Shown here in pieces: positions 9,624-62,058 of a DNA stretch of 64,000 nt. Position numbers and translations under genes: made by a program. Location: contig NZ_QICQ01000007.1 of NCBI RefSeq assembly GCF_003201195.1, forward strand, positions 1 to 64,000. Reading direction: 5' to 3'. Source of the DNA: Nitrosomonas eutropha. GTDB taxonomy: Bacteria > Pseudomonadota > Gammaproteobacteria > Burkholderiales > Nitrosomonadaceae. Numbering within the stretch: the stretch's first letter is position 1; the number at the start of each line of letters is the position of its first letter. The notes beneath the pieces are model-generated. The model saw only the letters and a program-made list of their open reading frames with translations. It was not told where the DNA came from and made no database searches.

Positions 9624-10112
9624 TTATTGATTAATGGAATTATATTTCTTGTGCCAGAGTAACCCTGCAATAATCCCGAATGCCGCAAATATAAGTAATG
9701 ACCAATCCGGCAGCGTCAATGATAGAAACTGCCAGGTACCATCATTGCAGTCACCATTGGCTTCAAACATATTCGGCCACCATTGTGCGAGAGGCAATCC
9801 ATTCAAAAAAGCTTCTTCTGGGCTGATACCGCATTCGAATGCTTCAGGAAAACGTATTAACCAGGCTTGTCGGCCGGCAACAATAGCACCTGCCAGTGAA
9901 AATAAAATGATTAATCCATAGTAGATATGTTGTCCCAGTGATTGTGGATTATGTATGAATGTAAATAAAGCAGTGATCCCGATCAGCCAGTAAGCAATGC
10001 GCTGGAAGATGCATAATGGGCAGGGTAGCAATCCATCCATCAGTTGCAGATAAAGCGCATAACCAATTAATCCGGCACAGGCCAAGAAAATCAGTAGAAA
10101 GATTATTCTCAT
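9624..10112 (-). CDS. dsbB: Disulfide bond formation protein B
   Basis: The 162-residue inner-membrane protein has four hydrophobic helices (near 1-20, 42-58, 64-82, 137-155). The first periplasmic Cys pair is CPLC (residues 31-34) and the second pair is the Cys residues near 100 and 123 (FECG, DCND). DsbB re-oxidises periplasmic DsbA and passes electrons to ubiquinone. This supports folding of secreted c-type cytochromes and peroxidases. The gene follows the rlmL-like gene by 9 bp on the same strand, so they may be co-transcribed. Confidence 0.93.
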   Translation of the reverse strand: MRIIFLLIFLACAGLIGYALYLQLMDGLLPCPLCIFQRIAYWLIGITALFTFIHNPQSLGQHIYYGLIILFSLAGAIVAGRQAWLIRFPEAFECGISPEEAFLNGLPLAQWWPNMFEANGDCNDGTWQFLSLTLPDWSLLIFAAFGIIAGLLWHKKYNSINQ

Positions 10113-10121
10113 AACTTTATC

Positions 10122-24942: not shown

Positions 24943-25018
24943 TCCCCGATAGCTCAGTCGGTAGAGCGACGGACTGTTAATCCGCAGGTCCCTGGTTCGA
25001 GCCCAGGTCGGGGAGCCA
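24943..25018 (+). tRNA. tRNA-Asn (GTT)
   Basis: The gene folds as a cloverleaf. The acceptor stem TCCCCGA pairs with TCGGGGA, the anticodon loop reads CTGTTAA (anticodon GTT), the T arm is CTGGTTCGAGCCCAG, and the CCA end is encoded. Its 3' 45 bases serve as attL of the prophage; the integrated phage restores the full tRNA sequence. Confidence 0.97.
24974..25018. other. attL core (45 bp, 3' part of tRNA-Asn)
   Basis: The segment from CTGTTAATCC to GGGGAGCCA is identical to 62014-62058. The integrase gene lies directly beside it, which fits tyrosine-recombinase insertion into a tRNA 3' end. Confidence 0.93.
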
Positions 25019-25090: not shown

Positions 25091-26116
25091 CTATTTTGTG
25101 GGAGTTATTTCGTCACCTTTCCTGTCTCTGATATATGTCTCTGTCATGGTAATATTTGCATGTCCGAGTTGCTTCTGAGCCTGCCTTATATCTCCTGAAG
25201 ATTCCGCCTTGTCGGTCCCGGCTTTTGCCCGCAGATCCCGGAATTGGAATTCCTCTTTTTTGATTCCCGCCAGTTCTCTTGCCTTGTCAAAGTGTGAGCG
25301 CAGCGTGGTGTAAGAGAGTTTTTGCCCAGTCTCATCAACGATGAGATACAGTGACCTGATCGTGTGTTTTACCTTCCTGCTCTTGATTCGATCGATAAGA
25401 GCGGCCAGCTCGCCTTCCAGCTTGATGCGCAGCTTCTTTCCAGTTTTTTGCTGTTTGACGTTTATCCTGCCATCTGTCAGGTCAGATTCGCGCAGTGCTA
25501 GTATATCTGCCGGGCGTTGTCCTGTGAGGTAGGCCATGTCCATAGCATCGCGCAGCGGGTGGCTTGCTACCTTATAGACAGCCATATAAATTTCATCTTC
25601 GATGTAGACATCTTTCCGTCCTTTTTCCCGGTTGCCTTTTATCCCGGCGCACGGATTTGGCAGGCTGGTGTAACCCCATTCTCTGGCTTTGTTCCAGATG
25701 TGGCTGAAAAGTGCCTTCTCACGGTTTGCTCTGGTTTTTGCCTGTCTTTGATCAAGATACTGTCTAATATGGATTGGCTCAATTTCTTCCAATGGGGCAG
25801 GCGGGTCATCAAAGAATCTATATAACCACTCTATTTCCGACAGATTATCCTTCTGGGTGCGTGGCGCTTTAGTGGCCATGATTTCGCGCATATATCTTTC
25901 CGCCACATACCGGAATGTGATGATCTGGTTATGTTTTGGCTTTGCATCAATCTCCAGCTCCGCCCATTTCTTGACGGCTATGGCGTAGTCAGTCCCAAGG
26001 GAAATTTCTTTCCGTGGCTTGCCACCTGTGTCGTAGTAGTAATAGATCTTTTTCCCACGCTGCCTTGCCCGCATGCGAGCAGGAAGGTTTTTGTGGATGT
26101 ATGGTGGCCTGCCCAT
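25091..26116 (-). CDS. int: Phage integrase (tyrosine recombinase)
   Basis: The 341-residue recombinase has an N-terminal Arg/Lys-rich arm-binding part, a SAM-like core-binding domain (about 70-160), and the catalytic domain. The catalytic Arg sits in LTGQRPADIL, the Arg of the box-II motif in FRDLRAKAGT (the usual His there is replaced by Arg), and the C-terminal QLGHANITMTETYI carries His and the Tyr nucleophile. The ATG at 26114-26116 is used; a TTG 29 codons upstream would overlap the preceding gene. It is the last gene of the leftward early operon, next to attL. Confidence 0.93.
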   Translation of the reverse strand: MGRPPYIHKNLPARMRARQRGKKIYYYYDTGGKPRKEISLGTDYAIAVKKWAELEIDAKPKHNQIITFRYVAERYMREIMATKAPRTQKDNLSEIEWLYRFFDDPPAPLEEIEPIHIRQYLDQRQAKTRANREKALFSHIWNKAREWGYTSLPNPCAGIKGNREKGRKDVYIEDEIYMAVYKVASHPLRDAMDMAYLTGQRPADILALRESDLTDGRINVKQQKTGKKLRIKLEGELAALIDRIKSRKVKHTIRSLYLIVDETGQKLSYTTLRSHFDKARELAGIKKEEFQFRDLRAKAGTDKAESSGDIRQAQKQLGHANITMTETYIRDRKGDEITPTK

Positions 26117-28887: not shown

Positions 28888-29787
28888 ATGGAGTTAGTAG
28901 TAAATCAGCAAATTTACTATTCGAATAAGAAGCTTATTCCGATTGAGGATGTTGCAGAATCACTGCTGGCTCTGGAAGGGGTGATACGTCATTCCCCGGA
29001 AGTTTTAGAAGCTCTTTTTCCTGGTGTAAAAATTAGTGCTGTAGATATTTATATCAAAGCGTTAAAGTCCGATAGCCTTTGGGAAGATGTTGTAGTCAAG
29101 TTCATATTTGGAAGCCAAGATAAACTTGACCTATTTATTGAGAATGCGCGCGAACGATTGGGGATGAATAAAATTTCAAACGATGGATTATTGTCAGTAA
29201 TTATTATTTTGCTTATTTTTGTTGGTTACTCTTATCTACTTAATAGAGATCAGACAGTAACTCAACAGCAGAGAGATACCATTGAGGCAAACAATAATAC
29301 GATTATTAACATAGGAGCAGGCATGGTAGATATAACTGCTGAAGAGTTCAGAATCCTTATTGATGGTGCGGTAAAAGATAAAGAGAAATTGGCAAAAGAT
29401 GCTGTTCGTATAGTTAAACCGGCGAAACTAGATCCAGAAGCTTCCATAACTTTTAATGATAATCAGGCGCTACAAATTCTCCCGGAAACTGTCAGGGCTA
29501 TGCCAGGTTATGTTTCCGATCTGGAAGATGAAGAATTTATAGAAGACTTTCCGAGTCTTGAAATGGAAGTGCGTGCGACTGATCTTGATAGCACGAAACG
29601 CGGATGGGCTGTTGTGATGCCGGAGATCAGTGAAGAACGTGTAAAACTTCACCTGGATTCCACGATAGATCGGCGCAAACTTCACGAAAAAGACAGATTT
29701 AAGGGGTCTGCTACAGTTATATTTAAACTCGATAAGAAATATAAAAAACTACCAAAGCTCGTTCTTCTACGAGAAATCATTGAATAA
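28888..29787 (+). CDS. Hypothetical single-TM protein, prophage accessory gene
   Basis: The 299-residue protein has a soluble N-terminal domain (1-100), one clear membrane helix (LLSVIIILLIFVGYSYLL, about 102-120) and a charged C-terminal domain rich in Asp/Glu/Lys, with VVMPEISEERVKLHL near 250. No family was recognised. GAAGGGAATGCG precedes the ATG. It is the only plus-strand gene between PL and the repressor, so it has its own promoter and may be expressed in the lysogen. It could be a host-conversion or defence gene, judged only by position. Confidence 0.75.
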   Translation: MELVVNQQIYYSNKKLIPIEDVAESLLALEGVIRHSPEVLEALFPGVKISAVDIYIKALKSDSLWEDVVVKFIFGSQDKLDLFIENARERLGMNKISNDGLLSVIIILLIFVGYSYLLNRDQTVTQQQRDTIEANNNTIINIGAGMVDITAEEFRILIDGAVKDKEKLAKDAVRIVKPAKLDPEASITFNDNQALQILPETVRAMPGYVSDLEDEEFIEDFPSLEMEVRATDLDSTKRGWAVVMPEISEERVKLHLDSTIDRRKLHEKDRFKGSATVIFKLDKKYKKLPKLVLLREIIE

Positions 29788-30045
29788 ATTGCATCAGCAC
29801 ATCTAGTAACTATCTGTTGGGCCGCGTTGATCTCGAAACCATAAAAACTAAATACCCCTTACCCAGCATCCATGGTTATCCCATTGTTTTTATTAATGAA
29901 TTAATAAGATAGATTTATCGGAAGGAATCTTTCATGCTTGAGTATTTGAGTCAAGATGGCAGACGAGATAGTTAATAGAAGGCCAGTGGGATGTGTAGGG
30001 TGTAGTCCTGAGGATGGTTTGATTAGCGATGAAATGAAAGGCCCT

Positions 30046-30073
30046 ACCATTCCGAGGGTATCCTCGGGATGGT
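30046..30073 (+). other. Near-perfect hairpin
   Basis: ACCATTCCGAGG and CCTCGGGATGGT pair over 12 bp (one G-T pair) around a 4-nt loop, 13 bp ahead of a terminator. Together they could be the 3' end of a small RNA or of the 28888 mRNA. Confidence 0.5.
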
Positions 30074-30085
30074 GGATAACAGAAA

Positions 30086-30112
30086 GCCCGCACTAGGCGG
30101 GCCTTGTTATTT
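30086..30112 (+). terminator. Intrinsic terminator after the 28888 gene
   Basis: GCCCGC (30086-30091), a 5-nt loop and GCGGGC (30097-30102) are followed by CTTGTTATTT. It is placed to end the plus-strand transcript of the 28888 gene. Confidence 0.65.
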
Positions 30113-30232
30113 GTTAAGTGGGGGAGGGAACGAGCCGTTAGCTATTCTTTATAGGCATGCAGGTTTATTAATTAAGTAGAAAGATTTAGCTTGAGTACTA
30201 AACATATGTTGACTATAATTGATTCCAACACG

Positions 30233-30268
30233 GCCCACCCAGCAGCACCAGGGGTGGGTTTTCTTTTT
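30233..30268 (+). terminator. Intrinsic terminator
   Basis: CCCACCC pairs with GGGTGGG across AGCAGCACCAG and is followed by TTTTCTTTTT. The transcript it would end is not obvious; it directly precedes the Abi-like fragment. Confidence 0.6.
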
Positions 30269-30272
30269 CCTG

Positions 30273-30360
30273 GCTATATCAACGTACAACAAGCCCTATC
30301 TTACTTTTGAGCAGCAACTGGATTTGCTGAAGAGTCGGGGATTGTCCCTGAGAAATATGG
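30273..30360 (+). pseudogene. Abi_2-type (AbiD/F-like) N-terminal fragment
   Basis: The plus frame reads YNKPYLTFEQQLDLLKSRGL, which looks like the opening of Abi_2 family abortive-infection proteins. After this the similarity stops and the frame ends at 30413. There is no ATG start or ribosome site, and a terminator lies just upstream. It is best seen as the leftover of a deleted phage-defence gene. Confidence 0.5.
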
Positions 30361-30409
30361 GATTCCCGGATGGATGGGATACCCACCCCTTATGGATGCG
30401 TAAAAAAAT

Positions 30410-30904
30410 TTAACCCGCCTTCCTCTGCTTGAATTTATTCTTCCGCCATAACCACGGTGGCACCCGTTCATTGTCTGGCAACTTCCACAGTCCGCGACGA
30501 TTAAGCCTTGCTTCGTGCTCGAGGCTGTAGAGCAACAGATCGTTCGCATATTGCGGATATACCCAGGCTGCACCACGCTTTACCATCTCGGCATTGATGT
30601 TCACTCTATTCACATACACGCGTCCGACTTTGCGCTTGTAGCGATCGGTAGCTTCCACTTCGATAGTAGCGGTCTTGCCGAAAGCAAGATCTGATAATTC
30701 CTGTTTGGCTTTGGTGCCGTAGGGTTGTTTCGATTCCGGGGTGTCTATCCCGGCCATGCGAATCTTAATCTGTTTCTTGCTGCTATCGAGTATGGTTAGC
30801 GTATCGCCATCAGAGATTGCCACGACACGGCCAGTGAGCTGCTCTGCCTGCAAGGGCAGGGCGACAATGAATATCGCCAGGAAGAGGATCTTTTTGAGGT
30901 TCAT
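30410..30904 (-). CDS. Secreted thermonuclease-like (SNase) protein
   Basis: The 164-residue protein has a signal peptide (MNLKKILFLAIFIVALPLQA) and a staphylococcal-nuclease OB-fold. Key residues are VVAISDGDTLTI, KIRMAGIDTPE (Arg and Asp), and RKVGRVYVN with the second active-site Arg. Such enzymes cleave DNA/RNA with Ca2+. The ATG at 30902-30904 overlaps the upstream stop. In a prophage it could degrade extracellular or incoming DNA in the periplasm. Confidence 0.88.
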   Translation of the reverse strand: MNLKKILFLAIFIVALPLQAEQLTGRVVAISDGDTLTILDSSKKQIKIRMAGIDTPESKQPYGTKAKQELSDLAFGKTATIEVEATDRYKRKVGRVYVNRVNINAEMVKRGAAWVYPQYANDLLLYSLEHEARLNRRGLWKLPDNERVPPWLWRKNKFKQRKAG

Positions 30905-31098
30905 GAGATAGGTGTGAAATATATCCAGTATACCCACATGCAAATTGCTGTAACTATTCCGAATATTGCTTTGCGCTGTTGAGTTGTTCTGCCGATCATC
31001 ATTGCAAGGGGAATAGCAATGGCTGCGGTGATTATGAATGCGGTAATAAATGAGTGCACCCAGGGGGAAATTATTTCTGCGATATTTAATTTTGTCAT
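30901..31098 (-). CDS. Small two-TM membrane protein
   Basis: The 65-residue protein has two hydrophobic helices (FITAFIITAAIAIPLAMMI and AIFGIVTAICMWVYWIYF) separated by a short basic loop. It starts at ATG 31096-31098 and overlaps the SNase gene start (ATGA), so the two are co-translated. No family is recognised. It might be an immunity or secretion partner of the nuclease, which is a guess from the coupling. Confidence 0.6.
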   Translation of the reverse strand: MTKLNIAEIISPWVHSFITAFIITAAIAIPLAMMIGRTTQQRKAIFGIVTAICMWVYWIYFTPIS

Positions 31099-31344
31099 CC
31101 ACTTGTATCGGTAGTGGCTATGCTGATCTTTAAGTGTTTTTACTACAAGCAATGCAAATCAGCAGGGTGTATACGATTTCATACTTATCCCCGAAAACCT
31201 TGAGTGATTCTGTGGATAACTGCTTTAAGGTACTGGTTGCGCAGGAAAGATGGGGATGGTTAATGATTGATCAAACTACTCTCCGCTTTTAACAACGCTG
31301 CCTGCAACAAATGCTGCAATGAGCTCAGTATCTTCATCAAGCAA

Positions 31345-31677
31345 TCAACAACGCCCCTTTTTTGCTTGACCAGGAGGGCAATGATATCCAGGGTTTATAT
31401 TGCCTGGATAAACATTATTGCTCGGGTAAATCGGGTATCCATGTTGAGGGTAATTATCATGTTGATGATGGTCTGGTTTTGTAGTGATTGCAGTACCCGC
31501 TGACGCTCCCAAGGCACCCCCTATAATTGCGCCGCTACGACCACCAAGCTCATTTCCCAGCGCAGCTCCAGCAGCTCCTCCGATTGCCCCGCCAACGGCC
31601 GCATCCAGGGTGGAGTTATCAGCGCCAGCTTCCATGGCAACAACTACTAGTATCGGTAAGAAGTATTTTAAATTCAT
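31345..31677 (-). CDS. Glycine-zipper (YMGG-like) exported protein
   Basis: The 110-residue product has a signal peptide, then a glycine-zipper hairpin (AVGGAIGGAAGAALGNELGG and SGAIIGGALGASAGTAI) and a His/Pro/Tyr-rich tail. Two Cys lie near the C-terminus. Glycine-zipper proteins insert in membranes and occur as outer-membrane or periplasmic proteins. It sits alone in the accessory region; the ATG at 31675-31677 fits the signal peptide. Confidence 0.7.
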   Translation of the reverse strand: MNLKYFLPILVVVAMEAGADNSTLDAAVGGAIGGAAGAALGNELGGRSGAIIGGALGASAGTAITTKPDHHQHDNYPQHGYPIYPSNNVYPGNINPGYHCPPGQAKKGRC

Positions 31678-31909
31678 GTGTTTGTCCCAAAAAGTTAACA
31701 ATACAAGATATGTTTGACACTCAACTGATCAAAGGTAGAACGCTGGTTGGCCAAACCAAGAAGAGTGAGGATAGGGAGCAGACTCTACAATGCTATGTGT
31801 ATTTGTACAATAACCTGTTGCTACAGTAGCACTGCAGAGTAAAACGAAGTGGGATGTAGTAGGTAGATATGATCATCAAAACTAGAACACCCCTAATACA
31901 AGCAAGGCA
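31678..31909. other. Intergenic, nothing seen
   Basis: No gene, repeat or terminator was recognised in this stretch. Confidence 0.5.
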
Positions 31910-32338
31910 TTATTTACAGTTTGGACTATCGACCAATTGACCATTGCAGTTTGTAACTTGGTTTTGATAACCGCTATAGCTGATAGTAGAAGGGGTTTTT
32001 GACCAGCTACCATCACTTTTTTGACAAGTTGCGGTCAGTTTGTTATTAGCTATAGACGCATCCTTGCAAGTTCTTGCAAAAGAGCCGGTGGCACCCGTGC
32101 ATACCAAGTTGCCATCGACATTGCTGACGTTTCCTACGCAAGAAGTTGCAAACGGTAGTTCAGTATTATTTTTTGAGCCATTGAAGCGGGTACAGCTTGC
32201 GGTCAATGTTTCCCCATTCAGAGCAATATTTGTGCAGGTCTTCTGGTACGACCCTTCAGGATTCGCTGCAAAAGCAGATGCTTGAAACGCAAATGACAGA
32301 AGAAATAAAGTGACTACCGAAATGATGTTTCTAATCAT
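31910..32338 (-). CDS. Secreted cyanovirin-N-like (CVNH) lectin
   Basis: The 142-residue protein has a signal peptide (ending AFAA) and two tandem CVNH-type repeats: GSYQKTCTNIALNGETLTA then SCTRFNG, and GSFARTCKDASIANNKLTA then CQKSDGSW. CVNH proteins bind mannose-type sugars. GAGG lies about 11 bases ahead of the ATG at 32336-32338. In a prophage, a secreted sugar-binding protein may coat cell-surface glycans and change phage adsorption or biofilm; this role is inferred. Confidence 0.82.
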   Translation of the reverse strand: MIRNIISVVTLFLLSFAFQASAFAANPEGSYQKTCTNIALNGETLTASCTRFNGSKNNTELPFATSCVGNVSNVDGNLVCTGATGSFARTCKDASIANNKLTATCQKSDGSWSKTPSTISYSGYQNQVTNCNGQLVDSPNCK

Positions 32339-32745
32339 TATAAAACCTCGATTAAATTTAGTTATGAAAAGAACTCTAATATGAGGCTGACTAACAAACC
32401 TCATCCATCGTAGCGGATGAATTTAAATTTACTTTAGAAGAATTTTATATTTTGAATTGCTACAAGTTGCAAACAATAGGTGGGGGGGAGATCAGTCGTG
32501 GATGTGGGATGTAGAATTTAGCTTTTATAAAGGTAACGCCGAAAAAATTTTGCTTAAGTTCGTTGAGGCTCTGTCGTTAACTGTACCTCATCTTTTGAAG
32601 TCTTTTGCCCGCCGTCACTGGCGGGTTTTTTATGGGGAGTCAGAATTCCTCGCTTGGCTTTCTACTTTGTATCTCATATATTGAGTTTTGTGCTACACAA
32701 CATGCGTTGTATCACTTTCATGCACTTCAAAATACTTTTCTGCCT
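32339..32745. other. Intergenic region, candidate plus-strand RNA
   Basis: No convincing gene is present. A strong plus-strand terminator ends at 32631, although both flanking genes are on the minus strand. A short plus-strand RNA, perhaps starting between 32400 and 32500, is therefore possible. No clear promoter was identified. Confidence 0.45.
32608..32631 (+). terminator. Intrinsic terminator on the plus strand
   Basis: CCCGCC (32608-32613) pairs with GGCGGG (32620-32625) and is followed by TTTTTT. No plus-strand gene precedes it. Confidence 0.8.
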
Positions 32746-33156
32746 TCAGCCATATTTGAATATTTTTAGCATGATGTGTGTTACTCGTATGAATGTGAAT
32801 AATGAACATACAGCAACCCATATCCATAGCACAGAGAAATAGTATTTCGATGTGTCAATGAAAAATCCAGTAATATTTAAACTACAAAATAAAAGATTGA
32901 CCCAAATTGCTGTAGCTATATATGAGACTAGATCATGGATATAGCCACTTTTCTTTAAATCATCAATTATTGGCGATCTCATACTCATAAGAATCGCTTT
33001 GCTTGTTGCAAGAAATCCGACAAATATTCCAGATACTGTGAGAGTGGAAGATAAAATTGAATCTTTTTCAGGGAATGGAGCACCTATTTGCAGCCAGAAG
33101 AAAGAGAAAATGGCGGCAAAGATGAATGGATAAGTTCTTTCAAATAGAAGTGCCAT
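32746..33156 (-). CDS. Four-TM membrane protein of accessory operon
   Basis: The 136-residue protein has four predicted helices (near 8-25, 38-58, 74-98, 105-128). Short basic loops such as MSMRSPIIDDLKKSG lie between. No family was recognised. It is the last gene of the leftward operon 35281-32746, 4 bp after the 182-residue membrane protein. The low GC content matches its operon neighbours. Confidence 0.7.
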   Translation of the reverse strand: MALLFERTYPFIFAAIFSFFWLQIGAPFPEKDSILSSTLTVSGIFVGFLATSKAILMSMRSPIIDDLKKSGYIHDLVSYIATAIWVNLLFCSLNITGFFIDTSKYYFSVLWIWVAVCSLFTFIRVTHIMLKIFKYG

Positions 33157-33160
33157 TATT

Positions 33161-33709
33161 TCATTCTAATTTGCCGTGTGCATAAGCTGTTGCATTAATT
33201 TTATCCAGATAATTCCGAGAACATTTCATGAATTTCTCCAAATTCATCCTGAGAAAAATAAAAGAAACCAGCGGCACTACAACAGTGATCACTAACACCG
33301 GAGAAGACATTATTAGATGACGAATGACGTGATAATTCATTTTCACGTAATAGGATTTTATTAGTTGTTTTTGTGTTTCTGTATTCTTAGCAACTGTTTC
33401 TTCAAGTTTATTACTGAATGTGGTGGGGATTTTTGCTTTCTTCACAAAAAATGTTAAGAAAATAGCCTGCCAGATGTTCAGTTTGTGCCCGAATTGAATG
33501 AACCCATTCATAGATGAACGTAGCATCATATAAGATGGATCATTGAATCCAATTTTCCCGTTCCGGGCATCATCAAATAATTGATCACGCAGGATAAACA
33601 TCTTTTGCCTGAATGAATCAATATAATAATCAGGGAAAAGCCACAGGATTAACCCAAGCAATATTAATATCGTGGCGAGTGAAAACAATCCAATTATTTC
33701 ATTCATCAT
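33161..33709 (-). CDS. Two-TM membrane protein of accessory operon
   Basis: The 182-residue protein has an N-terminal helix (residues 6-25) and a second near 133-153 (SSPVLVITVVVPLVSFIFL). Between them lies a soluble domain of about 100 residues with Lys-rich helices. No family was recognised. Its start overlaps the upstream stop (ATGA at 33706-33709), so translation is coupled. Confidence 0.7.
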   Translation of the reverse strand: MMNEIIGLFSLATILILLGLILWLFPDYYIDSFRQKMFILRDQLFDDARNGKIGFNDPSYMMLRSSMNGFIQFGHKLNIWQAIFLTFFVKKAKIPTTFSNKLEETVAKNTETQKQLIKSYYVKMNYHVIRHLIMSSPVLVITVVVPLVSFIFLRMNLEKFMKCSRNYLDKINATAYAHGKLE

Positions 33710-34110
33710 CTATCCTCCAGTCTGGTATCTCCTCGTTTTGTGAGGTTGCTGGAAGATCGGTTTTGATCTACATCTTTTTCAAGTTCCGTAATCCTGGTTT
33801 GCAGCCTCTCAATCGTATCTTTTCTTAATTTTCTTTGGAGAAATCCGTAAATAGTCCCTCCAACTCCAACTAAAGCCATTAATTTTGATAAAAGCTCCAG
33901 CTCAAACAGTACGCTGATCGCTATATCGGCAGATGTGTTTTTGCCTGAAATCGATATTATCGAAAGGTACACATAGTATGTGACAAATGCAATGACACTC
34001 CATTTGATGAGGTATGTTATCAACTGCACACATACATCTAATATTTTAGATAACTTCAGAAAGGATAGTTCAGCTTCCCGCATGTTCTTGCTTTTACTTT
34101 TTTGCTGCAT
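33706..34110 (-). CDS. Two-TM protein with C-terminal coiled coil
   Basis: The 134-residue protein has helices near 26-53 and 65-88 and a C-terminal coiled coil (ERLQTRITELEKDVDQN), ending in a polar tail. The coiled coil suggests self-assembly or binding to the protease or partner membrane proteins. It is coupled to the next gene. The start may be ATG 34108-34110 or ATG 34081-34083; neither has a strong ribosome site. Confidence 0.65.
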   Translation of the reverse strand: MQQKSKSKNMREAELSFLKLSKILDVCVQLITYLIKWSVIAFVTYYVYLSIISISGKNTSADIAISVLFELELLSKLMALVGVGGTIYGFLQRKLRKDTIERLQTRITELEKDVDQNRSSSNLTKRGDTRLEDR

Positions 34111-34146
34111 ATCCGATGTTTTATTTCTTTGCTGAATTTTTTCTGA

Positions 34147-34326
34147 TTAAACCTTGTCATCCATTGCTGATAGCAGGAGGCATGCTGTCGATTTAGATTG
34201 GGATGAGCTATTACCAGCTCCCTCATTGTCTTGAGAGTGTCTTGGATCTGTTATATGTGATACATACCGAGATTGATTCAATTTTATAGACTTGAATAGA
34301 TCTTTATTGACTTGAGCATGAATCAT
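34147..34326 (-). CDS. Possible small ORF between protease and membrane genes
   Basis: A frame of 59 codons (from ATG 34324-34326) overlaps the protease stop by about 20 bases and is polar and Ser/Gln-rich, ending AMDDKV. Longer starts up to 34419 overlap the protease gene further. No family was recognised and the ribosome site is weak, so it is uncertain. Confidence 0.35.
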   Translation of the reverse strand: MIHAQVNKDLFKSIKLNQSRYVSHITDPRHSQDNEGAGNSSSQSKSTACLLLSAMDDKV

Positions 34327-35269
34327 TTTGCTTGTCGCTCTTGCCTTCATATTTTGAAGATTCATCAATTCCTTCACTTCCTGTTTTGATTCCTGACTCA
34401 TTAATTGTTTCAGTCTCATTGGCTCCCTCTGCTATCGGTTCAGCTTCCTTTTCCAGGATTTCTAGAAAATTGCAAACTATTGGGTTTTCTGAATATGGAA
34501 CGTTTGGCAATAATCCAAGCGCCCATTTATATAACTCTATTGTTGTGGCGTCTGGCTTTTCAACACTTTTGAAGAGGGTGGAGGCTTCCTTTCTATCAAT
34601 CACAAATCCATGTGATGGGTAGCCACTAACCAATCGAATTAATGAATCTGACGCTAGTGAATTAGTTACTTTATTTAACCGCCGCCCATAATCAAAAGCT
34701 ATTTGAACGGCTCTTTGGTGCTCACCAAGAGTTACCGGATCTATTTTTGCGGCAATAGGTGCAATAAACCCATCTGCAAGTTTTGTGGCGATATCAGCTG
34801 CAAGTTTTGTTGTCAGTCCACTACCCCCGCGTATATCCATCAGATAGTTCCTAAATGAGACAAGTATCTGATTTTCTAGTGCGTTAATAGCTTGGATAAT
34901 ATTTAGGCCAGACATATTTTCAAATATTTCATCCGGCTTTGATAATTGTATATCTAACGGCCCTAGTTCACCTCTATCTCCAAAAATTAATTTGTGAGCC
35001 CCAATACATACAAGTGTTCCTGCAGACTTGCAAGCATCCGGTATCAGGATTTCAACTTTTTCAAAATGATGATTTAAAGCTCGTGCAATTCGATAGGCGG
35101 CATCAGGATCTCCACCATAAGTTACAAGTACTAGACAAATTTTTATTTTCTCATGCGGAATACTTTCTAAGACATTAGATATTTTCTTGTATCCCTCTCT
35201 GTTGATTCCACCGTAATATAGAACTACATCTCCCTCATATTTATCTAAAACTTCCTTTGTAATCATCAT
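34304..35269 (-). CDS. SDH/SppA-type serine protease (ClpP fold) of accessory operon
   Basis: The protein (about 321 residues) has a crotonase/ClpP-like protease domain. VTYGGDPDAAYRIARAL, then CKSAGTLVCIGAHKLIFGD with the likely nucleophile Ser (near 82), and RGELGPLDIQ match the SDH_protease/SppA-like family. The C-terminal third (after 200) is helical, followed by a disordered acidic tail. There is no signal peptide, so it should be cytoplasmic and may act at the membrane with its partners. Two close ATGs (35267-35269 and 35264-35266) and one at 35279-35281 are possible starts; GAGA precedes the second group. It is the first gene of a 4-5 gene operon. Confidence 0.82.
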   Translation of the reverse strand: MMITKEVLDKYEGDVVLYYGGINREGYKKISNVLESIPHEKIKICLVLVTYGGDPDAAYRIARALNHHFEKVEILIPDACKSAGTLVCIGAHKLIFGDRGELGPLDIQLSKPDEIFENMSGLNIIQAINALENQILVSFRNYLMDIRGGSGLTTKLAADIATKLADGFIAPIAAKIDPVTLGEHQRAVQIAFDYGRRLNKVTNSLASDSLIRLVSGYPSHGFVIDRKEASTLFKSVEKPDATTIELYKWALGLLPNVPYSENPIVCNFLEILEKEAEPIAEGANETETINESGIKTGSEGIDESSKYEGKSDKQNDSCSSQ

Positions 35270-35360
35270 TTTTATTCTCATACAAGATATTTACAAAGGA
35301 TAAATACGGCATCCCCAGAGTCGAGTTTAGCTTTCCAGAACCACTACGGCCTAAGTCTCC

Positions 35361-36368
35361 TTAAAATTGCTCACTCTTCCAGACCGTCAGTATTTTTCCG
35401 AACACCTCAAAGTCCATTCCTTCCACGATATCAAAGGGATCATAATCCGAGTTTTTCGATTTTGCCCGATAGATAACGCCACCATCTGTTGTAGGTATGC
35501 GCTGGATAGTTTTGATGTAGCCGTGATTTCCTACCCGAAAGAAGTAAACCGCATCTGAATCTACTTCTGTCACCCCACGGTCCATTAGAAGCGGATCGCC
35601 TGGGTTGAACATGGGTTGCATTGACGGTCCGAATCCGGTCACGATGCAAAGATTATTTACGCCAGTATGTCGCCTTACATTCAGTCGTAACCATTCATGA
35701 TCAACGTGCCAACTTTTGATGACACCGACCATACCATCAAGTATCAGGCCATTACCCATTGAGCCACCGGCATCATACTGCGGGATAACCACTTCATCAG
35801 GCTGAGGGGTACTGTCAAAAAAACTTACTCTGTGCGATGGCTGCGGGGTAGTGATGTCTAGACCAGGTTCTACGTTAGATTCATTGAACCCGTGCATCTC
35901 AATATCAGATCGAGGCGAGTATTTCGGAAGTTTCCCTGTTAACAACCATTCAATACTGAATTTAGTTTTCGAGAGTGCCAACAGGGGCTTGGGTCCGAGT
36001 TTTGTTTGTCCAGAAAACCATTGCGAGACTAGTCCTTCTGACACATTGCAAAATTTCGCCAGTTCTCGTGGCGACTCTATTCTTAATTCCCGCATAACTT
36101 CAAGCAGGCGATCTCCTAATGTATCCATCACATCCATGTCTGGATCATCAGGGTCGATTGTTATCTCGCTACTAAGCCAGCCGGTTGGATAATTTGGCGC
36201 ATAATTTTCTTCCATCTGCGCGGCCACTTTTTCGCCAAATGATTTTCTTCCAGCGATCATATCTCCCAGTTGTCTGTCTGGTTTTTTGAATTTCCTGCCT
36301 GCTACGGCCAGAGTGTATTTATCAACTAAGGCAGCAAGATTCTTCCTTCTTATTTCTGAAATATCCAT
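35361..36368 (-). CDS. CI-like phage repressor with LexA-type autoprotease domain
   Basis: The 335-residue protein has two helix-turn-helix-like regions, one near 1-60 (LAALVDKYTLAVAGRKFKK) and one near 80-135 (ESPRELAKFCNVSEGLVSQW). The C-terminal S24/LexA peptidase carries the Ser in GFGPSMQPMF and the Lys in HGYIKTIQR. Such repressors cleave themselves after DNA damage, starting induction. The ATG at 36366-36368 is placed at the expected transcription start of PRM, so the mRNA may be leaderless. Five palindromic operators in the window suit it. Confidence 0.92.
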   Translation of the reverse strand: MDISEIRRKNLAALVDKYTLAVAGRKFKKPDRQLGDMIAGRKSFGEKVAAQMEENYAPNYPTGWLSSEITIDPDDPDMDVMDTLGDRLLEVMRELRIESPRELAKFCNVSEGLVSQWFSGQTKLGPKPLLALSKTKFSIEWLLTGKLPKYSPRSDIEMHGFNESNVEPGLDITTPQPSHRVSFFDSTPQPDEVVIPQYDAGGSMGNGLILDGMVGVIKSWHVDHEWLRLNVRRHTGVNNLCIVTGFGPSMQPMFNPGDPLLMDRGVTEVDSDAVYFFRVGNHGYIKTIQRIPTTDGGVIYRAKSKNSDYDPFDIVEGMDFEVFGKILTVWKSEQF

Positions 36369-36374
36369 TTGTGC

Positions 36375-36403
36375 ATTACACCAAATGGTTAACATTCAGT
36401 AAA
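36375..36403 (-). promoter_or_regulatory. PRM-like promoter of the repressor
   Basis: On the minus strand, TTTACT (36398-36403), 17 bp and TGTAAT (36375-36380) lead to a start at or next to the A of the repressor ATG. An operator covers the -10 and spacer. Confidence 0.65.
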
Positions 36404-36443
36404 TGCACCGTACAGTGTTGACATATACACCACGTGGTGTATA
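36376..36443. promoter_or_regulatory. Three repressor operators at PRM/PR
   Basis: Sites are TTACACCAAATGGTTAA (36376-36392), GCACCGTACAGTGT (36405-36418) and the perfect 20-bp palindrome TATACACCACGTGGTGTATA (36424-36443). Centres are 22-27 bp apart, as in a lambda-like triple operator. The same half-site (ACACC) recurs at PL. Confidence 0.75.
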
Positions 36444-36445
36444 GT
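36418..36445 (+). promoter_or_regulatory. PR-like promoter
   Basis: TTGACA (36418-36423), a 16-bp spacer and TATAGT (36440-36445) form a strong promoter. The spacer is the perfect operator palindrome. The predicted start coincides with the ATG of the Cro-like gene at 36452. Confidence 0.8.
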
Positions 36446-36451
36446 TGCTCT

Positions 36452-36703
36452 ATGGAATTAATCGAATACATAAAAAAATTATCTATAAGTGATCGTAATG
36501 ATTTCGCCGTTTGTTGCGAAACCTCATTTGCACACCTGAGAAATATTGCCTACGGATACAGGCGTGCTGGCGAATTGTTATGCATCAACATTGAGCGCGA
36601 ATCGGGTGGATTAGTTAAATGTGAAACCCTCCGCCCCGACGTTGACTGGGGCTATCTGCGCAACAGTCGCCCCCAGACCAAACCCATACAGGAACAATCA
36701 TGA
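36452..36703 (+). CDS. Cro/YdaS-like regulator
   Basis: The 83-residue protein begins MELIEYIKKLSISDRNDFAV and has a helix-turn-helix feel (FAHLRNIAYGYRRAGELLC), like YdaS/Cro proteins. It is the first gene from PR, opposite the repressor, which is the place of Cro. No ribosome site precedes the ATG, consistent with a leaderless transcript. It overlaps the next gene by 4 bases. Confidence 0.75.
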   Translation: MELIEYIKKLSISDRNDFAVCCETSFAHLRNIAYGYRRAGELLCINIERESGGLVKCETLRPDVDWGYLRNSRPQTKPIQEQS

Positions 36704-37005
36704 CGCCATTGTCATCTGCGGTTGCTGAAAGATCACGCAAGGCGCATTCATTGGTATTGCAGCGTCTTGCATCGGTAGGACAGGTGAAGGTGGCTGAGAT
36801 GATCGGCACGTCGGAATCGACTATCTCCCGCTTCGTCAATACCGACCTGGAACGTTCCTGCCAGATATTGGCAGCACTGGGATTGAAGGTGGTGCCGATT
36901 GAGCTTAGATGCTATGAGCCGCGCAAGATCGCCATTCTGATGGAGTTAGCGCGGGATCACTTGAATCAGCTTGAGACAGTAGAGCAGCTGTCTTTTGATG
37001 ACTGA
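36700..37005 (+). CDS. CII-like transcription activator
   Basis: The 101-residue protein has the CII pattern: VLQRLASVGQVKVAEMIG, then TSESTISRFVNTDLERSCQI (HTH) and LAALGLKVVPIE. CII activates lysogeny promoters at the repressor and integrase genes. It is coupled to the Cro-like gene (ATGA). The position fits lambda order (cro-cII). Confidence 0.82.
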   Translation: MTPLSSAVAERSRKAHSLVLQRLASVGQVKVAEMIGTSESTISRFVNTDLERSCQILAALGLKVVPIELRCYEPRKIAILMELARDHLNQLETVEQLSFDD

Positions 37006-37126
37006 CGGGGAGGGCAGAATGATCCCGTCTACAGAATTACTCCCTGGCATTTCCTTGCCTTACCGCAGCGGGCAGCGTGGGCTCCCCCTTTCTCTCCTTA
37101 TCCCACGTAGCCGGATGCCCGCATTT

Positions 37127-37405
37127 TCAGGTGACGGTTATGTCGATATGTTTTCCGGCTCGTGTGGCCAGGGTGATCAGCATATCCAGGCTAAATTTTT
37201 CCCATTTTCCACGCATCAGATCGGATACACGAGACTGGCCAATGCCAAGTGTTTTAGCAGCTGTTTCCTGCGTCCATTCACGTTCGCGGATTGTTTTGCG
37301 CAGGTTGCTCATCAATTCTGCCCTCAGAGTATAAATGGCCGATTCTTCTGGCTTAAACCCAAGATCTTTGAATACGTTTCCGCTGGATTTGGTAATTTTT
37401 TCCAT
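37127..37405 (-). CDS. HigA-like antitoxin (XRE family)
   Basis: The 92-residue protein has an XRE helix-turn-helix: TIREREWTQETAAKTLGIGQ then SRVSDLMRGKWEKF. It belongs to the HTH_37/HigA-type antitoxins, with an N-terminal segment that would bind the toxin. It follows the toxin gene by 6 bp on the same strand, as in higBA loci where toxin comes first. It should repress its own promoter at 37768. Confidence 0.85.
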   Translation of the reverse strand: MEKITKSSGNVFKDLGFKPEESAIYTLRAELMSNLRKTIREREWTQETAAKTLGIGQSRVSDLMRGKWEKFSLDMLITLATRAGKHIDITVT

Positions 37406-37411
37406 CGATTG

Positions 37412-37729
37412 TTACTCCTTCATGATTTGCTTGTAACGCTGTTCTGCCAGCGCTATGTCGTGTTTGCTGGTTTTCTGCGTTTTCTTGTGGAATGCATGCA
37501 GGATATAAACGGCGTCCTGCATTTTTGCCACGTAAATTACACGCCATTCGCCCATTACGTGGATCCTGATTTCGTAGGTACCTGGTCCAACGGAGAGCAT
37601 CGGTTTGAAATCGGATGGCATCAGTCCTTGTTGCACGGCGAAAAGCTCAAAACCAACTGCCTTGCGGGCTTCTTCCGGAAAGTTTTTCAGATCGTCGAGG
37701 CTGGATCCAATGAATCTAAGCGGCTTCAT
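37412..37729 (-). CDS. HigB/Gp49-like RelE-family toxin
   Basis: The 105-residue protein has the phage-derived Gp49-like pattern: MKPLRFIGSSLDDLKNFP, AVGFELFAVQQGLMPSDFKP, GTYEIRIHVMGEWRVIYVAK and ILHAFHKKTQKT. These toxins are usually ribosome-dependent mRNA endonucleases. The ATG at 37727-37729 gives the family length. The pair lies on the minus strand between the CII-like gene and the replication gene, so it is expressed independently of PR. Confidence 0.87.
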   Translation of the reverse strand: MKPLRFIGSSLDDLKNFPEEARKAVGFELFAVQQGLMPSDFKPMLSVGPGTYEIRIHVMGEWRVIYVAKMQDAVYILHAFHKKTQKTSKHDIALAEQRYKQIMKE

Positions 37730-37767
37730 AGGCTGAATTATATAAATATCATGATAATTTATCAATG

Positions 37768-37781
37768 TATTTATATAAATA
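37768..37781. promoter_or_regulatory. Palindrome upstream of the toxin gene
   Basis: TATTTATATAAATA is a perfect 14-bp palindrome in an AT-rich region between the toxin and the primase gene. It is a likely HigA operator, and it may also affect primase expression. Confidence 0.5.
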
Positions 37782-37794
37782 TGGGTAAGTATAA

Positions 37795-40128
37795 ATGACC
37801 CCTAACCGGATCGATTTCAAGCGAATTGCTGATGCTGCACTTGGCCGTGCACATGCGCTGGTGCCTCAGTGGTTGCCGGGCGGTGATACGGCCGGGGCTG
37901 AATATAAGTGTTTGAATCCGACACGTTCTGATCATCGTAAGGGGTCGTTCTCGATCAACCTGGTATCCGGGGTATGGTCTGACTTTGCGACTGGGGATTC
38001 CGGTGCTGATCTGATCAGTCTGTATGCGTATATCCATTGTCTTTCGCAGCTCGATGCGGCCAAGGCAGTCGCTGAGCAGGTAGGGATCGATCTGGAGTCA
38101 TCTGTTCCGGCAAAAGAGGAAAAATCGTTGGATAAGCCAGCGAGGAAGCGATCTCTTTGGGTGCCAATAGTGCCGGTGCCAGAGGATGCACCGCCGGCAC
38201 CGGTTGCGCATCCGGTGCGCGGGCGATCCGTCAAGCACTGGGATTATTTCGATCAGGAAGGCCGTGTGCTGGGTGCTGTGCACCGGTTCCAGACTTCTGA
38301 TGGTGGCAAAGAGATTTTGCCATGCGTATTTGCGCAGCATGAGTTATCCGATAAGCGTGAGTGGCGCTGGATGGCTTTCCCGGAGCCGAGGCCGCTGTAT
38401 GGGTTGCGTCAGCTTGAGCTGCACCCTGAGCGGCCGGTGCTGCTGGTGGAAGGGGAGAAGTGTGCGGATGCGGGCAGGGTTGCGCTTGAGGATGAATTCG
38501 TATCAGTAAGTTGGTCAGGTGGCAGCAAGGCGGTAGATAAATCCGATTGGCAGCCACTGGCTGGTAAGGTGATTTATGCCTTCCCGGATTGCGATGCGAA
38601 ACGTGATGCTGTCGGCAATCTGCTGCCTGAGCATAAGCAACCAGGGATGGTGGCAATACTCAAGATACGGGATTTGTTGCTCAAGCTGGATCCTGCAACG
38701 AAGTTTCGGCTAGTACCGATTCCTGCCCCCGGTGATAAGCTGGATGGCTGGGATATCGCGGATGCAGTCGAGGAAGGCATGCCGAAGGAAGCGTTGCTGG
38801 TATTGATTCGATCGGCGCCGGAATGGCAGGCGGAGCCTGAAAGGGCTGAGCGGCAAAGTGCTGGTGAGGGTGATGATGGGCCGCCCTGGTCTGTCAGGGA
38901 TTTGGTATGGGATGGCAAGAAACCGGCCGCCTGTCTGTCGAACGTGTACGACATCCTGGAGCACGATAAAAAATGGCGAAATGTGATCGCCTATGACGAA
39001 TTTTCTTACCGGGTGGTGAAGCTGAAACCACCGCCATTTGTGGGCGGTGAAACGGGTGAATGGAACGGGGATGACGATGTGCAGACCTCGATGTGGATCA
39101 CGCGTAAATATGGCTTTGCTCCCCGGGAAAACATGACTGCGCTGGCGGTGGAATCGCTGGCGAGGTTTCACAAGTTTAACCCGGTGCAGGATTATCTGCG
39201 CTCCCTGAAATGGGATGGTATTTCGCGCGTGGATGACTGGATAACTGATTTCATCCATGCCCCAAAGTCAAAGTATGTCTGGCGGGTTGCCCGCTGGTTT
39301 CTGGTGGGGATGGTTGCGCGCGCGATGCGGCCCGGTATCAAGTTTGATTATTGCCTGGTACTGGAAGGCGATCAGGGACGCGGTAAATCATCGCTCCTGC
39401 GCGTTTTGGGTGGTGGGTGGTTCGGTGATACCGATCTGGATCTGCACAGCAAGGACAGCATGTCTGCGCTGCGTGGCAAGTGGTTGTATGAGATCTCCGA
39501 GCTGGGATCGTTGGCTCGTTCCGAAGCAACCAAGCAAAAGTCATTCTTTTCGCGCGAGGTGGATGAATTCCGGCCGGTTTATGGGGCGCGTGAAGTACGT
39601 TGCCCGCGTCAGCTGGTGTTCTGTGGAACCACCAATGAGTGGGAATGGAACAAGGATCAGACAGGCGGCCGGCGGTTCTGGCCAATCGAATGCACAGGTG
39701 AAATCAATATCGATGGCCTGGCAGCGGTGCGGGATCAGTTGTTTGCCGAGGCGTATCAGATTTATCTGTCTGGTGAACGCTTCTGGCCAACCAACCGCGA
39801 GCAGATCGATATTTTTAACCCGGAACAGTTCAGGAGGAGTGTATCGGATAGCTATCTGGATATGATCGAAAATTGGATTGCAGAACAGTATAAGGAGTTC
39901 TGCATTGCGGATGTGGCAACCGATTGCCTGAAGATCGACGCGGCACGACTGAGCAGGGATGTGCAGACGCGGATCGGCAGTGCATTACGGAAGTTGGGCT
40001 GCAGGAGGATTGAAAAACGCACGCACGCCGTTACCCGATACTGGTACAAGGCCCCCCAAGAAATGGGCTCAGGTCATAAATCGGGACAGGATGATGCGAA
40101 AGGAGAGGATCGTGGCATCGATTTTTGA
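37795..40128 (+). CDS. Phage primase-helicase (Toprim plus VapE/SF3 helicase)
   Basis: The 777-residue protein has an N-terminal primase-like part (about 1-130), a Toprim domain with LLVEGEKCADAGR (near 217), and a C-terminal VapE-type helicase (about 420-720). The helicase has the P-loop LEGDQGRGKSSLLRVLGGGW, the motif LYEISELGSL with acidic residues, and FCGTTNEWEWNKDQTGGRRFW. It should open the origin, prime and unwind phage DNA. It is followed by a repeat-rich gap that may be the origin it acts on. Confidence 0.9.
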   Translation: MTPNRIDFKRIADAALGRAHALVPQWLPGGDTAGAEYKCLNPTRSDHRKGSFSINLVSGVWSDFATGDSGADLISLYAYIHCLSQLDAAKAVAEQVGIDLESSVPAKEEKSLDKPARKRSLWVPIVPVPEDAPPAPVAHPVRGRSVKHWDYFDQEGRVLGAVHRFQTSDGGKEILPCVFAQHELSDKREWRWMAFPEPRPLYGLRQLELHPERPVLLVEGEKCADAGRVALEDEFVSVSWSGGSKAVDKSDWQPLAGKVIYAFPDCDAKRDAVGNLLPEHKQPGMVAILKIRDLLLKLDPATKFRLVPIPAPGDKLDGWDIADAVEEGMPKEALLVLIRSAPEWQAEPERAERQSAGEGDDGPPWSVRDLVWDGKKPAACLSNVYDILEHDKKWRNVIAYDEFSYRVVKLKPPPFVGGETGEWNGDDDVQTSMWITRKYGFAPRENMTALAVESLARFHKFNPVQDYLRSLKWDGISRVDDWITDFIHAPKSKYVWRVARWFLVGMVARAMRPGIKFDYCLVLEGDQGRGKSSLLRVLGGGWFGDTDLDLHSKDSMSALRGKWLYEISELGSLARSEATKQKSFFSREVDEFRPVYGAREVRCPRQLVFCGTTNEWEWNKDQTGGRRFWPIECTGEINIDGLAAVRDQLFAEAYQIYLSGERFWPTNREQIDIFNPEQFRRSVSDSYLDMIENWIAEQYKEFCIADVATDCLKIDAARLSRDVQTRIGSALRKLGCRRIEKRTHAVTRYWYKAPQEMGSGHKSGQDDAKGEDRGIDF

Positions 40129-41953: not shown

Positions 41954-42418
41954 ATGAGAGGAAGATATCCTAAGCCGACCCATCTGAAGATTGTTGAAGG
42001 CAATCGTGGGAAGCGAGGGGTCAACAAGCAGGAGCCAGATCCGGCTTACCTCAATGACCTGGCCGCTCCAGATTATTTTTCTGCTGGTGCAAAAATTGTA
42101 TGGAGTGAGATCGTGCCAGGCTTGCGGGAAGCAAAATTGCTGACCGAAGTGGATGTTCCGATGCTGCATATGGCGTGCGAAGCCATTGCCACATATCGTC
42201 GGGCTGCACTGGAATGTGGGCAGGAATATACCGAGCCCGGTGCCAAAGAAAGAAAATCGATCAGCTACTGGGAGATGGTCAAGTCCATGGCATTCAAGCA
42301 GGCCATGACAGCACTGCAGCAGTTCGGCATGTCGCCGGCTGCACGCACACGTATCGCCGTTCAACCGCAACAGACATTACCTGGACTTGAAGAAACATCC
42401 GAAACCTACCTCACGTGA
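41954..42418 (+). CDS. Terminase small subunit (P27 family)
   Basis: The 154-residue protein has the P27 pattern: MRGRYPKPTHLKIVEGNRGK, then KIVWSEIVPGLREAKLLTEVD, and a C-terminal LQQFGMSPAARTRI. It recognises the phage DNA end for packaging. It overlaps the large subunit by about 30 bases. Confidence 0.92.
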   Translation: MRGRYPKPTHLKIVEGNRGKRGVNKQEPDPAYLNDLAAPDYFSAGAKIVWSEIVPGLREAKLLTEVDVPMLHMACEAIATYRRAALECGQEYTEPGAKERKSISYWEMVKSMAFKQAMTALQQFGMSPAARTRIAVQPQQTLPGLEETSETYLT

Positions 42419-44096
42419 TCCGGTGACAACCTATGCCCGGAAAGTAGTGGCTGGGAAAATAGTCGCAGGCCCGCATGTCCGGGCAGCCTGTAACCGGCAC
42501 CTGGAAGATTTAGAGCAAGCTCCTTCACGGGGCTTTTTTTTCGACCTGGAAAAAGTGAAGCGCATCATTGGCTTTTGCCGGGATGTGCTCAAACTAAACG
42601 GTGGCGAATATGAGGGCAAGCCCTATATCCTGTTGGACTGGCAGGCATTCATCGTCGGCAGCTTGTTCGGCTGGGTCGATGTAGAAGGCTTGAGACGTTT
42701 CCGCGTGGCCTATGTAAGCACCGGGAAAGGCAGCGGAAAATCGCCACTTGCCGCCGCAGTGGGTCTGTATGGTCTGGTGGCAGATGGGGAGGCGCGTGCT
42801 GAGTGCTATTCAGCGGCAACAAAAAAAGATCAGGCCATGATTCTGTTTCGTGATGCAGTGGCGATGGTAGATCAATCTGCCATCCTGCGAGATGCACTGA
42901 TCAAAAGTGGAAAAGGATCGACGGTCTGGAACCTTGCTTACCATAAGTCAGGCAGCTTCTTCCGTCCGATCTCGTCCGATGATGGACAGTCCGGTCCTCG
43001 TCCGCATATCGCACTCATCGATGAGATCCATGAACACAAAAATAATTTCGTGGTGGAGATGATGCGGGCCGGTACCAAAAGCCGTCGGCAGGCGTTGATC
43101 TTCATGATCACCAACTCAGGGTCGGACAAGACCGGCCCATGTTGGGATTATCACACTTACGGCACACAGGTAGCTTCTGGACAGTTGACCGACGATTCAT
43201 TCTTCAGCTACATCTGCGCACTGGATGAAGGTGATGACCCGATCAACGATGAATCCTGCTGGGACAAAGCCAACCCCAGCCTGAGATTCGGCCTTCCGGG
43301 CTATCGCTATATCCGTGAACAGGTGCGGGAAGCGAAGGGTATGCCGAGCAAAGAAGCCGTGGTGCGGCGCCTGAATTTTTGTGAATGGACTGGAGCAGAT
43401 GCCCCTTGGATCTCGGCAGATGTATGGATGGATGCCCGTCGCGACTATGACTGGCGCAATCTGCGGAGCCGGCGTGCATGGGGTGGGCTAGATTTGGGAT
43501 CCACTACAGATCTAACCGGCCTGGTATTGTGGCTGGAACCGGAAACAGCAGAAGATCCTTGGCAGCTCGTTACGTTTGCCTGGTTGCCGGAACAGGATCT
43601 GCTGCGAAAAGAAGAAGTGGATCGTGTTCCTTACCTGGCCTGGAAATCCGCCGGCTATCTTGAAACAACCCCTGGCCGTGCAGTCAGCCGCCTGGCCGTC
43701 CTGCGCAGATTGGCAGAATTACAGAATATGTTCGATATCCAATGTATTGCATTTGACAGATGGCGCATCGAGGATCTGAAACAAATGGCTGAAGACGAAG
43801 GCATCGCCCTGCCGCCGATGGAACCATTCGGGCAGGGATTCAAAGATATGAGCCCGGCGTTGGACAAGTTTGAAAGTGCATTGCTCAATGGCGAAGTCGT
43901 CCATGATGGCAACTCGGTATTCACCTGGTGCGCCGCCAATGCCGTAACTGTTGCGGACTCTGCAGAAAACCGCAAGCTGAGTAAAAACAAAGCAACCGGC
44001 CGGATAGATCTGATGGTGGCTGCGGTCATGGGTGCGGGGATCGCACTGAACAGCGCGCGTGAAGAATCCGTGGAACCCGCACTCATCATCCTATGA
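42387..44096 (+). CDS. Terminase large subunit
   Basis: The 569-residue ATPase-nuclease drives DNA into the prohead. Walker A-like STGKGSGKSPLAAAVGLYG lies near residue 110, and Walker B is IALIDEIHEH. The nuclease domain starts near 360 with GGLDLGSTTDLTG (acidic residue) and ends with the acidic residue in TGRIDLMVAA. The start TTG at 42387 lies inside the small subunit. It belongs to the HK97-like class with P27. Confidence 0.93.
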   Translation: MKKHPKPTSRDPVTTYARKVVAGKIVAGPHVRAACNRHLEDLEQAPSRGFFFDLEKVKRIIGFCRDVLKLNGGEYEGKPYILLDWQAFIVGSLFGWVDVEGLRRFRVAYVSTGKGSGKSPLAAAVGLYGLVADGEARAECYSAATKKDQAMILFRDAVAMVDQSAILRDALIKSGKGSTVWNLAYHKSGSFFRPISSDDGQSGPRPHIALIDEIHEHKNNFVVEMMRAGTKSRRQALIFMITNSGSDKTGPCWDYHTYGTQVASGQLTDDSFFSYICALDEGDDPINDESCWDKANPSLRFGLPGYRYIREQVREAKGMPSKEAVVRRLNFCEWTGADAPWISADVWMDARRDYDWRNLRSRRAWGGLDLGSTTDLTGLVLWLEPETAEDPWQLVTFAWLPEQDLLRKEEVDRVPYLAWKSAGYLETTPGRAVSRLAVLRRLAELQNMFDIQCIAFDRWRIEDLKQMAEDEGIALPPMEPFGQGFKDMSPALDKFESALLNGEVVHDGNSVFTWCAANAVTVADSAENRKLSKNKATGRIDLMVAAVMGAGIALNSAREESVEPALIIL

Positions 44097-62013: not shown

Positions 62014-62058
62014 CTGTTAATCCGCAGGTCCCTGGTTCGAGCCCAGGTCGGGGAGCCA
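62014..62058. other. attR core (45 bp)
   Basis: This is an exact copy of the attL core. The upstream bases do not complete a tRNA, so only the left copy is a functional gene. Confidence 0.93.

Follow-up and report, generated by a model that had tools for sequence, protein, structure and literature searches.

Four genes that follow the CI-type repressor of a Nitrosomonas eutropha prophage, here p1 to p4, are very probably independent modules stacked in the place that rexAB fills behind cI in lambda (the rex slot). They lie in a window of 64,000 nucleotides, the whole stretch of DNA analysed, from a genome (G000) whose 85 contigs total 2.67 Mb. p1, a ClpP-fold protease with a serine conserved in every aligned sequence, is found at other loci in the absence of p2-p4; p2 and p3 together make up a membrane cassette that stands on its own; and p4 is similar to the membrane partner in a pair formed by a DUF6731 protein and a four-transmembrane (4-TM) protein, the soluble partner of which was not found in this genome. 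Judged from sequence, we consider the reading as a whole, stacked rex-slot cargo with phage exclusion or abortive infection as its most likely function, rather probable. An exclusion role is plausible for each of the modules, and for p1 the case for it is evenly balanced.

The prophage is 37 kb long and is integrated at a tRNA-Asn gene (Table 1). All four genes are co-directional with the repressor gene and lie directly downstream of it, as is found for RexAB-type systems, and the repressor is presumed to be the first gene of a lysogenic operon. The repressor gene and p1 are 79 bp apart, p1 and p2 193 bp, p2 and p3 overlap by 4 bp and a 4-bp gap separates p3 from p4; only p2 and p3 overlap, where the preliminary description had spoken of 4-bp overlaps or short gaps. 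The 193-bp gap could contain a promoter, and a scan of its minus strand found no terminator-like site; no Rfam family was matched in positions 30000-38000. The AT-richness noted earlier is borne out: GC content is 36.6% in the four-gene span, 48.1% in the window and 54.0% in the terminase gene. An IMG/VR virus contig (UViG_637000196) encodes a protease identical to p1, and this locus, L012, is an identical copy of the prophage. On the same strand and 3' of p4, a gene at 31910-32404 (minus strand) encodes a CVNH-domain (cyanovirin-N type) lectin (43 bits), which may be further lysogenic cargo. Also present, at 28888-29787 on the plus strand and so opposite to the repressor operon, is a gene for a 299-aa protein of phrog_4506 (216.9 bits), a family of unknown function.

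Table 1. Features of the prophage in the window, with DUF6731/4-TM pairs found at other loci.
Feature	Positions	Strand	Remarks
tRNA-Asn	24943-25018		
attL	24974-25018	+	45-bp direct repeat, 3' end of tRNA-Asn; exact match to 62014-62058
Phage integrase	25091-26116	-	PF00589, 88.6 bits
p4	32746-33156	-	4-TM, 136 aa; 64% identity to L160/L161 proteins
p3	33161-33709	-	2-TM, conserved motif between TM segments; phrog_13156, 73.7 bits; PADLOC 1TM-TIR, 27.7 bits
p2	33706-34110	-	2-TM, presumed coiled coil, conserved tail; phrog_27816, 75 bits
p1	34304-35281	-	ClpP-fold SDH-type serine protease, no TM
Ser86 codon of p1	35024-35026	-	Predicted nucleophile (CKSAGT)
CI-type repressor	35361-36395	-	S24 peptidase, PF00717, 38.5 bits; weak HTH match; phrog_4 transcriptional repressor, 131.9 bits
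Terminase large subunit	42387-44096		
attR	62014-62058	+	Second copy of the 45-bp repeat
DUF6731 + 4-TM pair	L160:5136-6411		Phage
DUF6731 + 4-TM pair	L182:2911-4356		Bacillota plasmid
DUF6731 + 4-TM pair	L229:894-2229		Genome G175

p1 scores 38.9 bits against SDH_protease (PF01972), above the curated cut-off of 31.3, and belongs to the ClpP-type fold; with the SDH family of Clp-fold serine proteinases (PF01972, NF047768) it also shares the motifs TxGGDP, KSAGT and LGPxDxQ. Ser86 is invariant, being serine in 80 of 80 aligned rows, and in a PDB profile search with alignment A8 it lines up with the SAGT serine of 1510-N; the search with alignment A1 gave no match. 1510-N (PH1510) is titled a stomatin-specific membrane protease, whereas nothing among p2-p4 was recognisable as a stomatin gene. 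p1 also falls far under the cut-off of the NF047768 Clp_like_SDH equivalog (48.4 bits against 250), and its family (phrog_21683) has a C-terminal signature of its own, YPxHxFVIDRxEA. The closest named relative, at 77% identity, comes from a Nitrosomonas MAG, and E. coli relatives are already named as SDH family in NCBI annotation. No PADLOC family matched the window's p1 or three of its relatives at E <= 1.

The distribution of p1 shows the protease at other loci without the membrane proteins. Scans for it yielded 66 genome-contig loci and, from viral contigs, the 80 best of 92, the prophage's own copy among them; with other searches the total came to 157 loci, a few of which are distant SDH relatives only, and 134 of which have at least 2 kb of sequence downstream. 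p2, p3 or p4 is present at just two of these, L001 and L012, both copies of the window's prophage, and at none of the other 155, although some of those loci end close to the gene. The preliminary description had correctly recognised the SDH/ClpP-fold protease, the three membrane proteins (two of 2-TM, with the coiled coil of p2 presumed, and one of 4-TM) and the site as one of lysogenic cargo. Its single four-gene system with a membrane-gated protease, for which it had itself named the co-occurrence count as the refuting test, was rejected: the four genes are found together only in the two copies of this prophage, and p2-p3 and p4 are each seen beside different genes elsewhere.

The p1 family does recur in the rex slot. 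Clustering at 90% identity reduced the 143 loci above 230 bits to 103 clusters, 96 of them with more than 700 bp upstream. In 21 of the 96 clusters, the window's prophage counted, the protease has a CI-like gene upstream on its own strand. The number is rough because just five sequences went into the CI model, among them the window's own and three others from protease neighbourhoods; with this model no CI-like gene was seen in the other 75. Among clusters scoring at least 440 bits, 10 of 13 have the CI-like gene. In E. coli, a DNA match to the form of the protease carried by a Klebsiella phage was found in 48 of 5,426 genomes (28 of these matches span 80% of the gene or more), while 17 of the 5,426 match a more distant form. 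Six E. coli neighbourhoods were read, and in four of them (L221, L222, L223 and L226) the protease is directly 3' of the repressor on the same strand. N is annotated behind the protease in L221 and, after a pseudogene, in L226, while L222 and L223 have in the N position an unnamed gene equal in length to the N of L226. The order in L225 is repressor, a small membrane-anchored protein gene, then protease; in L224 the protease lies in a prophage remnant adjoining prfC, without the repressor-protease order. The interval between repressor and N is described in PMC7067206 as a common moron site, rexAB included, and the same paper has lambda lysogens expressing rexAB from the prophage. PMC12894663 describes a prophage RexAB 3' of a CI-like repressor that suppresses growth when activated, the suppression being due in RexAB-type systems to a 4-TM membrane protein stimulated by a soluble partner.

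A class scan gave SDH-type matches in 28 of 339 genomes, above 100 bits only in the window's genome and in G320, whose copy has one in-frame stop, and 2 of 41 nearest-relative genomes gave a match, one of them weak. Of plasmid records, 10 of 72,556 matched. The role of p1 may be broader than exclusion, because the five-sequence model showed no CI-like gene in 75 of the 96 clusters and many loci, the cyanobacterial L055, L064 and L066 among them, may lie outside prophages. Two plasmids, one from Methylocystis and one from Rhizobium (L008:1371-4648 and L011:1391-4681), have operons of multiubiquitin-domain and ThiF (E1) genes that end in a distant SDH-type protease (31% and 27% identity to p1), with E2/UBC and DUF6527 annotated only in the Methylocystis one; therefore the fold is also part of bacterial ubiquitin-like conjugation loci. 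A nearer relative (43.5% identity; L004:5141-6106) lies behind a gene annotated with the zonular occludens toxin domain on pMsip02, a 9.8-kb plasmid of Methylovorus whose other genes include those for a major capsid protein, an integrase and an AAA ATPase. Genes of the zonular occludens toxin domain type are morphogenesis genes in filamentous phages, and pMsip02 seems to be a filamentous-phage-like element that has the protease too.

p2 and p3 form a unit of their own. p2 ends in a conserved tail, RSSSNLTxxGxTxxED, and the p3 motif is R..LF.LRD.LF...F..Y...R...N. A PHROG scan of the class for p3 found it in 9 of 369 genomes, and p2 lies directly before p3 in all eight of those other than the window's; two of the eight, from a single genus, amount to one near-identical locus. 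Models A2 and A3 derive from the eight loci. Independent of that training set is a pair in G919, a genome of the same genus as the window's, where p2-p3 lies between two SNase genes; the CI model found no match around it, and from ORF starts our guess is that it is in a prophage. In the flanking stretches read in the eight class genomes and G919, no p1, p4 or DUF6731 gene was found; none of the eight has a close p1, and one has a distant SDH-type match (46 bits) on another contig. Contexts vary, p2-p3 adjoining a malate-dehydrogenase-type gene in L172, gatB in L173 and, near a contig end, an HTH-integrase gene in L179. The last had been considered as a repressor and was rejected as such; a gene in L176 taken as PAPS-reductase-like was likewise rejected, having no Pfam match. 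SNase-type genes (PF00565, 66-87 bits) are seen near p2-p3 in the window, at 30410-31102 (minus strand) and 2 kb away, as well as on both sides of the G919 pair (L241:8410-8829 and 10026-10454, plus strand).

Across the phylum, a scan matched p3 in 9 of 398 genomes, seven of them new: p2 with the tail motif is present at L187 and, by eye, a p2-like 2-TM gene without the tail at L188 and L189, whereas no p2 partner was seen at L186 or found by model and motif scan at L190-L192. The genus scan for p2 matched 9 of 61 genomes, strongly only in G000 and G919; the other seven matches, weak and in ORFs of about 388 aa, were dropped. Order-level scans with phrog_13156 and phrog_27816 each matched one of 150 genomes, the window's own. 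No phage match was obtained by tblastn with p2, p3 or p4, a p3 search in plasmids gave only three weak Leptospira matches, and viral-contig scans with p3 alone and with A6 and A7, patterns taken from N-terminal stretches, recovered only the window's prophage. The PADLOC model 1TM-TIR (PDLC02977) matches five of eight p3 proteins, with a best E of 1.6e-10; no TIR domain was matched by Pfam in p1-p4, and no paper with this model name was found in the open-access literature. Identification of p3 with SieB (PF14163) was tried and rejected: the window's p3 has no profile match, the comparison of the p3 profile with lambda SieB by hhalign was non-significant, and the single match among eight p3 members, L165, reached 25.1 bits, below the cut-off of 26.

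The closest relatives of p4 are found on two near-identical viral contigs, L160 and L161, on which each is preceded by a gene for a DUF6731 protein (72.6 bits in L160 against a cut-off of 27; 99% identical in L161). The same order, DUF6731 then 4-TM, is present on a Niallia plasmid and in G175, a genome of the window's class, and the 4-TM partners (136-171 aa) align with p4 at 27-64% identity. None of p1, p2 and p3 was found beside these pairs in phage, plasmid or G175. p4 is thus like the 4-TM partners, but DUF6731 gave no match in the window's genome; it is rare, with 2 of 274 class genomes matched and one of those over the cut-off.

The pair of DUF6731 and 4-TM proteins is a candidate RexAB-like pair. 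As with lambda rexAB and RexAB-type systems (PMC12894663), p4 is cargo behind cI on the repressor strand, and a 4-TM protein of about 140 aa is the presumed effector; here, in contrast, a protease and a two-gene membrane cassette accompany it, and neither PADLOC nor Pfam gave a RexA match (E <= 1) for any of p1-p4. PADLOC RexB matches p4 weakly (17.5 bits, E 9e-4, against 202.4 bits for lambda RexB itself), Pfam gave no RexB match for p4, and PADLOC PDC-M67A matches two of the three DUF6731 proteins at a weak 18-19 bits. Proven homology of p4 to lambda RexB, and of DUF6731 to lambda RexA, was rejected, hhalign being non-significant in a test that is low in power because lambda is a single sequence. 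Given the weak PADLOC signal and the non-significant profile comparisons, p4 is RexB-like by size, topology and place, and a candidate RexB homologue. When the PDB was searched with the sequence of the DUF6731 protein of L160, the one match was at chance level and was not RexA; the AlphaFold2 model of this protein, from an alignment of two near-identical rows, has a pLDDT of 37.6.

Could the genes nevertheless act together? A coupled system in which p1 is activated by, or activates, a p2-p3-p4 membrane complex would fit the common strand, the tight spacing of p2-p3-p4 and the joint presence of all four in the prophage and in L012, but is very improbable given the 155 other protease loci without p2, p3 or p4 (some ending near the gene), the eight other p2-p3 genomes without a close p1 and the 193 bp between p1 and p2. 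A smaller union, with p2-p3-p4 as one membrane system in which p2-p3 stands in for the missing DUF6731 sensor and p1 is independent, has the 4-bp overlap, the 4-bp gap and the absence of a DUF6731 match from G000 in its favour; it is unlikely, as the other loci searched have p2-p3 without p4 and p4 relatives without p2-p3. The most elaborate version, in which p1 belongs to a dedicated ClpP-fold family giving one-gene rex-slot exclusion in many lineages and is here stacked with a p2-p3-p4 membrane effector that no longer has its DUF6731 sensor and responds to proteolysis instead, is a long shot.

Alternatively, the cargo may have nothing to do with exclusion. p1 could be the phage's own regulatory protease, with the repressor or lysis-lysogeny control, for example, as its target, and its recurrence beside CI-like repressors is what would be expected; yet it is matched in only one of 50,697 phage records, one form occurs in 48 of the 5,426 E. 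coli genomes, and 75 of 96 clusters have no CI-like neighbour seen. It is therefore no core gene, being rare in phage records and in E. coli genomes, and we hold a purely regulatory role distinctly unlikely. Host-fitness cargo unrelated to phages (lysogenic conversion, for example membrane or protein quality control) is given an equally small chance: the fold of p1 is shared with 1510-N, the stomatin-specific membrane protease of its title, and p2-p3 adjoin a malate-dehydrogenase-type gene and gatB in two genomes, but the repressor-N interval is a known accessory-gene site, for example of rexAB (PMC7067206), which fits exclusion without proving it.

Under the preferred reading of independent modules in the rex slot, p1, p2-p3 and p4 would have been acquired independently as cargo, all four would be made with CI during lysogeny, and each module would protect the lysogen against other phages on its own. 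p1 would work in the cytosol as an oligomeric protease, kept inactive until infection triggers it to cut a host or phage protein, leading to abortive infection; such an infection-triggered protease appears the most likely mechanism for p1. p2-p3 would act at the inner membrane, with the soluble parts of both proteins and their conserved motifs sensing or gating, and p4 would act there like RexB, as a growth-arresting channel.

Each of the pieces is of a known kind: rex-slot cargo, a ClpP-fold protease and small membrane effectors. In the open-access papers searched, a lone ClpP-fold protease behind cI or in prophage defence was not found described, and neither were the p2-p3 cassette and the DUF6731/4-TM pair. 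These last two are further membrane modules, defined by co-occurrence. Exclusion genes are known from the stretch that follows cI in lambda-type prophages, and the lone protease recurs there in the window's Nitrosomonas-type prophage and in E. coli prophages; if p1 excludes phages, it would be a prophage defence consisting of a protease alone, and E. coli K-12 would allow an immediate test of it.
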